A DNA stretch of 64,000 nt, taken from positions 2,294,001 to 2,358,000 of the forward strand of contig NZ_CP099567.1 in the NCBI RefSeq assembly GCF_022530855.2, read 5' to 3'. The translations under genes were made by a program, and so were the position numbers. Of this stretch, positions 25,035 to 31,325 are shown in pieces. Position 1 is the first letter of the stretch, and each line of letters starts with the position of its first letter. A model generated the notes under the pieces. The model had not been told where the DNA came from, searched no databases, and worked only from the letters and a program-made list of their open reading frames with translations. The stretch is from Candidatus Vondammii sp. HM_W22. Lineage in GTDB: Bacteria > Pseudomonadota > Gammaproteobacteria > Chromatiales > Chromatiaceae.

Positions 25035-25059
25035 CCCTGCCCTGCCCTGCCCTGCCCTG
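25035..25059. repeat. Five tandem CCCTG repeats
   Basis: Five exact copies of CCCTG in a row, about 215 bases upstream of tkt. Short tandem arrays of this kind can vary in length by slippage, though they are outside any coding frame here. Confidence 0.85.
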
Positions 25060-25333: not shown

Positions 25334-25888
25334 TTACTCCCGCCACTTGATGGAGCAACCGATGCTCGGGATCTGGGCATCCGGCCCTTTGCCGGTCTCA
25401 GACACCTGCTTCATCGCTTCAAAAAGGTCTCTGCGGACATCTTCAGCCGCCGCTTCCTTCCGACTCTCATCCAGGCGACCACGGTACCGGAGTTGCAGCT
25501 CACCATTGTACCCGAAAAAGTCCGGTGTGCAGACAGCGCCATAAGCTTTGGCCACCCGTTGCGACTCATCCAACAAATAGGGAAAGGGAAAGTTCAGTTG
25601 TTCAGCTATCTTCTGCATATTCTCAAACGAGTCCTCTTCGTAGTAAGTCGAATCATTCGACATAATAGCCACACAGTTGACTCCAAGCCCCTTCAATTCC
25701 CTAGCATCCCGCAGAATACGATCAATAACCGCTTTTACGTAGGGGCAGTGGTTACAGATAAACATCACCAGAAGCCCATTTTCTCCGCGACACTGTTCCA
25801 GAGTCCAAGTTTTGCCATCCACGCCGGGAAGAGAAAAATCAATGGCAGGAAGTGCAAAATCACACACCGGAGTTTCGAGTGAGACCAT
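25334..25888 (-). CDS. Thioredoxin/AhpC-TSA family protein
   Basis: A 184-residue thioredoxin-fold protein with LPAIDFSLPGVDGKTWTLEQ, MFICNHCPYVKAVIDRIL as the active-site region (CNHC), MSNDSTYYEEDSFENM and YGAVCTPDFFGYNG. It resembles the redoxin-domain proteins that are widespread in proteobacteria, acting as a peroxide or disulfide reductase without known partner. No signal peptide is visible, so it is probably cytosolic. It seems intact and single. Confidence 0.85.
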   Translation of the reverse strand: MVSLETPVCDFALPAIDFSLPGVDGKTWTLEQCRGENGLLVMFICNHCPYVKAVIDRILRDARELKGLGVNCVAIMSNDSTYYEEDSFENMQKIAEQLNFPFPYLLDESQRVAKAYGAVCTPDFFGYNGELQLRYRGRLDESRKEAAAEDVRRDLFEAMKQVSETGKGPDAQIPSIGCSIKWRE

Positions 25889-26097: not shown

Positions 26098-26125
26098 TTG
26101 ACAATTCCAGGAGTATGCGCATAAT
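26098..26125 (+). promoter_or_regulatory. Strong sigma70 promoter upstream of metK
   Basis: A perfect TTGACA (26098-26103) and CATAAT (26120-26125) are 16 bases apart. Transcription would begin near 26132, giving a leader of about 127 nt before the metK ATG. Confidence 0.7.
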
Positions 26126-26205
26126 CTAGCCACTGCGCCGATTTGATATCAGATTGCGGGCGCGTTACAAATGCGGCTAAAGCGTCAGACCGGTCACTAT
26201 TTCGG

Positions 26206-26240
26206 AAAACCCGCCTTAGCTTTTGTCAGGCGGGTTTTTT
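26206..26240 (+). terminator. Intrinsic terminator in the metK leader
   Basis: AAAACCCGCCT (26206-26216) pairs with AGGCGGGTTTT (26228-26238) over 11 bp and continues into TT. It ends 18 bases before the metK ATG, so transcripts from the promoter at 26098 must read through it. An upstream GCGGG (26156-26160) could pair with CCCGC of the stem and act as antiterminator. This points to transcription attenuation; the regulator or ligand is unknown. Confidence 0.75.
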
Positions 26241-26258
26241 ATTGGGAATTTATTAATT

Positions 26259-27425
26259 ATGAGCGATTACATATTTACCTCCGAATCAGTATCGGAGGGA
26301 CATCCGGACAAAATGGCGGATCAGATCTCTGACGCCGTACTGGATGCCATCCTCAAACAGGACTCCAACCCGGAACATGCCCGGGTTGCCTGCGAGACCA
26401 TGATCAAGACAGGGGTTGTCATTGTCGGCGGAGAAATAACCACAAATGCCTGGGTCGACCTGGACGAGGTGGTGCGTAAAGTGATCTGCGATATCGGTTA
26501 CACAAGCTCCGATGTGGGCTTCGATGGCAGCACCTGCGCCGTCATGTCGCTGATTGGCAAGCAGTCGGGGAATATCGCTCAGGGTGTTGACCGCTCTGCC
26601 CCTGAACAACAGGGCGCGGGTGACCAGGGCCTGATGTTCGGCTACGCGACGAATGAAACAGAGGTGCTGATGCCAGCCCCCATCACCTACGCTCACCGAC
26701 TGATGGAACGCCAGGCAGAAATGCGCCGTGATAACGTGCTGCCCTGGTTGCGCCCCGATGCCAAGAGCCAGGTCACCTTCCGCTACCGTGAAGGTAAGGT
26801 CGTCAGCATTGATGCCGTGGTGCTCTCCACCCAGCACGACCCTGACATCAAGCACGAGCATCTGGAAGAGGCGGTGATGGAAAATATCATCATGCCGGTT
26901 CTTCCCTCCGAATGGCTGCATGAAGATACCCGCTACCATATCAACCCCACAGGCGCCTTCATTATCGGCGGCCCGGTCGGCGATTGCGGCCTCACCGGTC
27001 GCAAGATCATCGTTGACACCTACGGTGGCGCTGCCCGCCATGGTGGCGGGGCCTTCTCCGGCAAAGACCCATCCAAAGTGGATCGCTCTGCAGCTTATGC
27101 CGGGCGCTATGTGGCCAAGAATATCGTTGCCGCCGGTCTGGCCGACCGCTGCGAAATTCAGATCTCCTACGCCATTGGGGTGGCAGAGCCCACCTCCATC
27201 TCCATCGATACCTTTGGCACTGCCCAAATCGATGGAGAGAAGATAGCTGACTTGGTACGGGAGCACTTCGACCTGCGTCCCTTTGGCATTATGCAGATGC
27301 TGGACCTAATCAAGCCGATCTATCAGAAGACCGCTGCCTATGGCCACTTCGGCCGCGAAGAACCTGAGTTCAGCTGGGAGCGGACCAATAAGGCTGATCT
27401 GCTGCGAGAGGCTGCCGGCCTCTGA
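26259..27425 (+). CDS. metK: S-adenosylmethionine synthetase
   Basis: Makes SAM from methionine and ATP. The ATG at 26259 gives [20 protein letters not shown], the normal start; an upstream TTG at 26223 would lie inside the terminator. The 388 residues show [14 protein letters not shown], the signature [31 protein letters not shown] and [20 protein letters not shown]. It opens the methyl-cycle group metK-ahcY-metF. Its leader suggests control by transcription attenuation. Confidence 0.97.
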
Positions 27426-27498: not shown

Positions 27499-27574
27499 AG
27501 CTGGCTGAGGAGCGTTGCAACAGGTGATTTTCCTGCCAGGCTTAGCGAGCTGATCCACAGTAAACGGCGCTTAG
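27499..27574 (+). promoter_or_regulatory. S-adenosylhomocysteine (SAH) riboswitch
   Basis: The leader of ahcY carries the conserved core of the SAH riboswitch: GAGGAGCGTTGCAAC (about 27507-27521), then GCCAGGCT and finally AAACGGCGCTTA. Spacing and order fit the family, in which SAH binding frees the ribosome-binding site (CGGAG at about 27581) and turns on ahcY. It lets the cell remove SAH, an inhibitor of methyltransferases. Confidence 0.9.
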
Positions 27575-27594
27575 TTTTTTCGGAGACTAAAACC

Positions 27595-30081: not shown

Positions 30082-31325
30082 GAGACTGTCCTGAATTCTG
30101 TGTAACTGCCTATCATTAAACCCAAACAAGGGGACGATCGACAAGAAAGAGCTCCAGGCGATAGCCCAGGCGGCCGCTAAAAACATCAAAACTGAAGAAG
30201 ATCTCAACGAGTTTCGGCAAATGCTGACCAGGATCACGGTCGATGCAGCCCTCAACGTTGAACCGGATGATCACCTTGGCTTTGCCAAGCATCAACAACC
30301 CGAAGCGAGTAATAGCCGCAACGGCACGACCAGCAAGACCTTGCAAACGGAAGATGGCCAGTTTGAACTGGATACCCCGCGAGATAGAGCAGGCAGCTTT
30401 GAACCTCAGCTAGTTAAGAAGCACCAGCGTCGATTTACCTCAATGGATGACAAGATCCTCTTCTTGTATGCCCAAGGTATGACAACCCGCGAAATCGTCA
30501 CGATATTCAAGGAGATGTATGGGGCCGATGTCTCTGCCACACTCATATCCAAAGTCACTGATGCAGTTATCGAACAGGTTGTTGAATGGCAATCTCGCCC
30601 CCTGGATGCGATTTATCCTATTGTTTATCTGGACTGCATTGTCGTTAAAATCAGGCAAGACAAGAAAGTGATCAACAAAGCGATTTACCTCGCTCTGGGC
30701 GTTAACCTGGAAGGCCACAAGGAATTATTAGGGATGTGCCTATCGGAGAAAGTGAAGGATATTTTGATTGCCTGTGTCGAAGGCTTAAAAGGCTTTCCTG
30801 ATGCCATCAACACGGCCTTTCCGGATACCCAGATCCAGCTCTGTATCGTGCATATGGTACGGAACTCGATGAAGTACGTGCCTTGGAAAGACTACAAGCC
30901 TGTCACGGCTGATTTGAAAAAGATTTACCAGTCCATCACCGAGGAAGAAGCCTTATTGGCGCTGGATAAATTCTCTGACCGGTGGGACAACAAGTACCCC
31001 CGGATCAGCCGCTCCTGGCGTGCCCATCGGCAGAATATCAACACGCTGTTCAGCTACCCGGAGGACAAACGAAAAGTGATCTGCACGAACAACACCATTA
31101 GCCGCTGAACAGCGTCATTCGCAAAGCGATCAAAAAGCGGAAATTGTTTCCAACCGATGACTCGGCAAAGAAGGTAATCTATCTGGCAATCCAGGCCGCA
31201 TCGAAAAAGTGGACAATGCCAATCCGTAATTCGAAACCAGCACTGAATAGATTTATGATTGAGTTCGAAGAACGCTTAGCGGTATATAGTTAACCCAGGC
31301 AGTTACACAGAAAACTTTACAGGCT
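30082..31325. mobile_element. IS256-family element, second type
   Basis: TTCTGTGTAACTGCCT near 30096 recurs inverted near 31297, and the outer ends both read CGAG(A/C)CTGT. The element is about 1.24 kb. It is not similar in sequence to the IS256 copies A-C. It has inserted in, and truncated, the IS3 element to its right. Confidence 0.85.
30116..31293 (+). pseudogene. IS256-family transposase (second type), frameshifted
   Basis: The open middle part (30221-31108) shows the first DDE region IYPIVYLDCIVVKIRQDKK and then DTQIQLCIVHMVRNSMKYV, the conserved CxxH-type stretch. An extra G near 30131 separates the first 35 codons (KKELQAIAQAAAKNIKTEED). At about 31100 a frameshift moves the tail, LNSVIRKAIKKRKLFPTDDS and NRFMIEFEERLA, to another frame. 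The element cannot make a complete transposase. Confidence 0.85.

Follow-up and report, generated by a model that had tools for sequence, protein, structure and literature searches.

Evidence for a SAM-II class riboswitch in the metK leader of Candidatus Vondammii sp. HM_W22 and its predicted action as a transcriptional OFF switch

Introduction

SAM-II riboswitches were first described as RNAs with a promoter just before stem P1 and a terminator after P2, and an OFF switch was proposed for them (PMC1273637). In the crystal structure, whose numbering is used here, the fully conserved pocket bases are U10-U12, U20, U21, G22, C23, G42, C43, U44, A45, A46 and A47 (PMC3764141). In 2007 the class was placed in gamma- and alphaproteobacteria and Bacteroidetes, and its alpha- and betaproteobacterial representatives were said to have regulatory terminators (PMC2258182); in 2009 it was called common in alpha-, beta- and gammaproteobacteria (PMC2704228). 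Leyn et al. (2014), who covered about 200 genomes, found SAM_alpha in Rhizobiales and Rhodobacterales only and left betaproteobacterial metK without a known regulator; they also described a betaproteobacterial metXZ element, located before metX or metZ, with six conserved regions, a pseudoknot, a terminator and an antiterminator (PMC4239095). A further RNA, Bp2_287 (Bp2_Cand287_SIPHT, RF02424), was reported 5' of metX and metZ, and its authors suspected a cis-acting methionine element (PMC3521395). The metZ SAM-II riboswitch of S. meliloti is followed by an intrinsic terminator, and an RNA of about 100 nt (RZ) is released (PMC9373788). In the open-access literature searched, no paper was found that joins SAM-II, the metXZ element and Bp2_287.

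Here we describe the leader of metK in a stretch of 64,000 nucleotides from Candidatus Vondammii sp. HM_W22 (the window; NZ_CP099567.1, positions 2,294,001 to 2,358,000). With a probability of about 0.88 in our estimate, it belongs to the SAM-II riboswitches and turns metK off at the level of transcription, where we infer SAM binding and switching from sequence comparisons. The riboswitch class is a known one, to which this leader is an added member.

Results

Organization of the metK locus

The presumed regulated gene, metK, encodes methionine adenosyltransferase (26259-27425; TIGR01034, E 9.1e-186); it lies on the plus strand, as do all features below unless stated otherwise. The closest named metK found, with 86% identity, is that of Sedimenticola hydrogenitrophicus. 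By comparison with the consensus, a putative sigma-70-type promoter lies at 26098-26125, with a −35 element TTGACA (26098-26103), a 16-nt spacer and a −10 element CATAAT (26120-26125), which give 11 of 12 consensus matches. Two promoter-like sites were counted in the region, against a mean of 0.8 in shuffled sequence, and inspection by eye placed a similar −35/−10 pair at the same place in eight metK leaders, those of the window and its relatives. The leader is about 127 nt long and ends in an intrinsic terminator (26206-26240) with an 11-bp stem (26206-26216/26228-26238) and a T-run (26235-26240), and 18 nt separate it from the ATG of metK; promoter, leader and terminator lie where a preliminary description of this DNA had put them. 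The isolated terminator has a predicted folding energy of −20.1 kcal/mol. A simple terminator scan did not detect it because its 11-nt loop exceeds the 8-nt limit of the scan.

The whole leader folds only moderately better than its shuffled versions (z −1.82). The real grounds for regarding it as more than a chance feature are homology and conservation. The absence of MetJ control, also proposed earlier, agrees with the genome, in which no metJ (PF01340) was matched while the E. coli control was detected.

Downstream of metK follow, in this order, an SAH riboswitch, ahcY and metF. The SAH riboswitch (27501-27579; RF01057, 51.7 bits, cut-off 37) lies directly 5' of ahcY, one gene after metK, and these neighbouring SAM-cycle genes therefore carry two different riboswitch classes. 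An ORF just 3' of metF (30221-31108) looks by eye like a transposase fragment. A short intergenic CCCTG repeat (25041-25059) was noted as downstream of a thioredoxin-like gene (25334-25888).

The leader belongs to the SAM-II class

The preliminary description could not match the leader to any known SAM riboswitch class, which proved wrong. In a permissive Rfam scan, RF00521 (SAM_alpha, that is SAM-II) matched positions 26125-26200 over all 79 model positions with 32.4 bits and an E value of 1.4e-5. A scan of the whole window at gathering thresholds did not report the metK leader, as this score lies below the cut-off of 36 bits, which is an operational limit and not a structural feature. In the 3.35-Mb genome, the leader is the top RF00521 match (E 2.1e-5). 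The other SAM classes in Rfam (SAM-I, SMK, SAM-IV, SAM-V, SAM-VI, SAM/SAH and SAM-Chlorobi) gave no match at E <=10 between 25900 and 26400. The 13 invariant pocket bases are all unchanged in the metK leader (26142-26144, 26154-26157 and 26176-26181). The distances agree as well: the −10 element ends at 26125 and P1 starts at 26135, and a SAM synthetase gene lies downstream, as expected for SAM-II.

A test free of circularity was provided by a model (R2) whose sole input was 36 metZ leaders from other families, so that it contained no metK leader and no sequence of the source genome. R2 recognized the metK leader of the window with 70.3 bits (E 3.1e-17). It gave one further match in the source genome (32.2 bits), 5' of a metZ-like gene for O-succinylhomoserine sulfhydrylase. 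This second SAM-II copy, which lies outside the window on the minus strand (L114, G000:C1:1770266-1770330), has its own terminator and was not matched by RF00521.

Parts of the aptamer

P1 is formed by GCGCC (26135-26139) and GGCGC (26159-26163), both strands being supported by covariation. Between them lie L1 (GAUUUG, 26140-26145), which contains the pocket uridines U10-U12 (26142-26144), then UCAG (26149-26152) and the 5' strand of P2b (UUGC, 26154-26157). In the SAM-bound pseudoknot, the latter would pair with G26176, C26177, A26179 and A26180. L3 (GUUACAAAUGCG, 26164-26175) is expected, by analogy with the SAM-II structure, to dock in the minor groove of P1 (PMC3764141). The segment GCUAAAGCG (26176-26184) that follows contains the 3' strand of P2b with pocket bases G42-A47; it may otherwise serve as the 5' strand of an antiterminator.

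The outer pseudoknot helix P2a is weak in the window copy, in which a single predicted Watson-Crick pair, C26150-G26184, is followed by a U-U mismatch. UCAG was found in 115 of 149 gamma- and betaproteobacterial leaders, and CAG in 134; in 25 comparison leaders, which were retrieved from the phylum by means of RF00521 and almost all lie outside the class, UCAG did not occur (0 of 25) and CCGG or UCGG mostly stood in its place. The predicted ligand-free pairing of GAUUUG in L1 with CAGAUU (26150-26155) may explain why UCAG precedes [AC]UUGC in the gamma- and betaproteobacterial leaders. Alternatively, UCAG may have a tertiary role in P2.

Conservation, covariation and distribution

The metK and metZ leaders of relatives share the motif GCGC[CU]-[GA]AUUU-n-UCAG[AC]UUGC-n-GCGC-n-AAA-n-GCUAAAG, followed by a terminator. 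Covariation was analyzed in an alignment (A2) of 90 sequences; because A2 was fitted to P1 and its sequences are related, the following figures lean toward the structure. Overall, 94.2% of the cells were paired, compared with 89.5% after column shuffling and at most 53.9% with slid partners. P1 was paired in 96.9% of its cells, with both-sided changes in three of six pairs, and its outermost pair occurs as A-U, C-G, G-C and U-A. P2a was paired in 80.9%, and two of its three pairs show both-sided changes. Covariation was thus seen in P1 and in P2a of this set. In P2b, the pairing UUGC:GC-AA is possible in every aligned sequence; the UUGC:GCUAAA segments are invariant, so that they carry no covariation support of their own, and such invariance is as expected for a binding pocket.

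A model built from 22 metK and metZ leaders of relatives (R1) matched 187 of 369 genomes sampled across the class at E <=0.01. In the same 369 genomes, RF00521 scored above its cut-off in 30 and reached E <=0.01 in 136 (controls, 0 of 14). Most SAM-II members in the class therefore fall below the RF00521 cut-off (30 genomes versus 187 with R1). Among the 129 leaders of the class survey, 90 precede metZ and 15 metK; metK is a minority target and metZ a more frequent one. Likewise, only six of the 80 closest named metK loci carry the element: two from Sedimenticola, one from Chromatiales and three labelled Gammaproteobacteria or Thiotrichales. Beyond these named loci, taxonomy was taken from kinship labels and gene content. 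R1 also found SAM-II aptamers with terminators 5' of metX in 14 of 15 genomes of one probable Burkholderiales family, and 5' of metZ in many families.

Several variants were observed in these surveys. Five metK leaders of a betaproteobacterial-looking family (L311, L354, L355, L356 and L357) have a diverged aptamer and lack a terminator; in three of them (L311, L354 and L356) GAGUU replaces GAUUU, a possible altered-pocket variant. In the diverged leaders, GCUAAAGC is followed by GUUCGCC, whose complement GGCGAAC lies at the start of metK. This suggests that the terminator-less leaders may exert translational control. Tandem SAM-II aptamers, known already (PMC9481103), were seen at 12 loci (L136, L166, L171, L180, L199, L205, L006, L212, L222, L230, L232 and L234), arranged as an aptamer, usually a terminator, and a second aptamer about 100-120 nt downstream. 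Their targets are odd: several are non-methionine genes, including those for a MoxR-type AAA ATPase (L136), an HD-domain protein (L234) and proteins without Pfam matches, and the regions 3' of the tandem aptamers at 13 places showed no single theme. Two genomes had many R1 matches at E <=0.01 (G279, 10; G391, 6); in G279, several near-identical tandem leaders lie 5' of different accessory genes.

A predicted switch between ligand pocket and antiterminator

In the mechanism that we consider most likely, ligand pocket and antiterminator are alternative uses of one strand. Transcription would start a few nucleotides 5' of P1. As long as SAM is absent, GAUUUG of L1 in the nascent RNA would pair with CAGAUU and thereby extend P1, and the free GCUAAAGCG would pair with CGCCUUAGC (26212-26220), which overlaps the left arm of the terminator. 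The resulting antiterminator, with 8 of 9 possible pairs, would allow the polymerase to reach metK. When SAM is plentiful, it would be bound in the P2b pseudoknot, with UUGC paired to GC-AA and U10-U12 engaged in triples, and GCUAAA would be occupied; the left and right arms of the terminator could then pair and transcription would stop before metK. The predicted terminated RNA, aptamer plus terminator (about 26131-26240, by the presumed start and end), would be about 110 nt long.

The comparison covered 149 leaders (28 metK, 96 metZ and 25 other), in 121 of which a terminator was found automatically. The best 9-nt pairing of terminator arm plus loop with GCUAAAGCG had a mean of 7.2 (metK), 8.1 (metZ) and 8.5 (other) of 9, compared with 5.7, 6.2 and 6.0 for dinucleotide-shuffled arms (one-sided Wilcoxon p 9e-6, 3e-14 and 4e-6, respectively, values that overstate independence because the leaders share ancestry). 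When all 9-mers of the aptamer were tried, the complementarity profile was highest at GCUAAAGCG in each of the three groups. For RNAs cut just after the left arm and loop of the terminator, pairing of the arm with GCUAAAGCG (more than four pairs) was predicted in 21 of 25 metK, 70 of 78 metZ and 17 of 18 other leaders. In the window, the minimum-energy fold of the nascent RNA contains the antiterminator 26176-26184/26212-26220 with 8 of 9 pairs, as well as GAUUUG:CAGAUU (−28.6 kcal/mol). Taken alone, the window's 8 of 9 arm pairs are reached by 12% of shuffles, which is not significant, and the case for the antiterminator therefore rests on the leader set. At equilibrium the completed full-length leader is predicted to be 9.3 kcal/mol more stable with the terminator; control must then be kinetic and be decided during transcription.

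Alternative explanations

An antiterminator had already been proposed in the preliminary description, with GCGGG (26156-26160) pairing to CCCGC (26210-26214) and thus competing for the 3' strand of P1. Both segments are present, and an antiterminator as such is supported by the present analysis. In the metK leaders, complementarity does have a secondary maximum near UUGCGGGCG (offsets −24 to −21), and pairing of this type is the predicted nascent fold in three of 25 metK leaders (L005, L009 and L040). However, it was predicted in only one of 78 metZ and none of 18 other leaders, and when forced in the window it gives −20.4 kcal/mol, 8.2 kcal/mol worse than the antiterminator with GCUAAAGCG. 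We regard switching through this partner as unlikely. That the terminator does no more than reduce metK expression, in an RNA without switching, is distinctly unlikely. Such constitutive attenuation would accord with the preference of the full-length leader for the terminator, and the terminator after the SAM-II aptamer of S. meliloti metA is not predicted to be aptamer-controlled (PMC9373788). But plain termination needs no complementarity between the arm and the ligand-binding strand, and yet the left arm shows it in the majority of the 121 leaders for which a terminator was detected.

Ligand specificity cannot be proved from sequence, and with the weak P2a of the window copy and the lineage-specific UCAG one might suppose a SAM-II-like aptamer whose ligand has changed by drift, perhaps to SAH or methionine. 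Every pocket base is unchanged, though, the targets metK, metZ, metX, metF and metH suit feedback by SAM, and ahcY of the SAH cycle has an SAH riboswitch of its own, so that drift appears very improbable. As for an independent small RNA, possibly antisense as the Rfam name Bp2_287 would imply, RF02424 does match the minus strand of the window at 26113-26240 (31.7 bits). Against this, for at least 22 of the 24 RF02424 matches in the class R1 detects a SAM-II aptamer in sense orientation on the other strand, the RF02424 consensus reads as the reverse complement of a SAM-II aptamer plus terminator, and the sole minus-strand promoter-like site is directed away from the leader. A separate small RNA, also raised in the preliminary description, is hardly credible and not needed, although termination would set free an RNA of about 110 nt, much as the S. 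meliloti metZ riboswitch yields RZ. That description's wider proposal of a metK attenuator with an antiterminator is supported, and a response to SAM, one of its options, is probable.

Discussion

With this leader, bacteria that lack MetJ have a candidate RNA for the regulation of metK; several methionine genes were left without a regulator in the 2014 survey. Most SAM-II riboswitches in this bacterial class go unseen at the standard Rfam cut-off, although about half of the genomes sampled have one. The proposed mechanism is simple and testable, as a single strand would be either ligand pocket or antiterminator.

We consider it fairly likely that the gamma- and betaproteobacterial metK, metZ and metX leaders make up a separate branch of SAM-II, for the most part unannotated, with a ligand-free state built in, in which GAUUUG pairs with CAGAUU and the ligand strand becomes the antiterminator. 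This branch would be a main SAM sensor in lineages where MetJ is absent, and SAM-II, the metXZ element and Bp2_287 would then be one and the same. What is possibly new is the targeting of metK by SAM-II in these bacteria, together with the lineage-specific platform and the identity with Bp2_287 and metXZ.

Compared with the described systems, the leader resembles SAM-II (RF00521 SAM_alpha; PMC1273637) in P1, in L1 GAUUUG and in the predicted UUGC:GCUAAA pseudoknot, and also in having a promoter just 5' of P1, a terminator after P2 and a methionine/SAM gene downstream. It differs from RF00521 members in its target, metK instead of metA, metX, metY or metZ; in UCAG, where the alpha-type has CCGG before [AC]UUGC; in its short P2a; in a terminator arm that can pair with GCUAAAGCG; and in its score below the Rfam cut-off. 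The metZ SAM-II riboswitch of S. meliloti likewise combines an aptamer with an intrinsic terminator, but is alphaproteobacterial and precedes a different gene. The metXZ element, not recognized as SAM-II by its authors (PMC4239095), is matched to the present leaders by description and location. Finally, Bp2_287 occurs at the same kind of loci as the gamma- and betaproteobacterial SAM-II leaders (RF02424 matches L244-L263), but its model has the opposite strand and is filed as an sRNA; RF02424 seems to represent SAM-II and its terminator in reverse complement, which suggests that this Rfam 'sRNA' family was built on the wrong strand.
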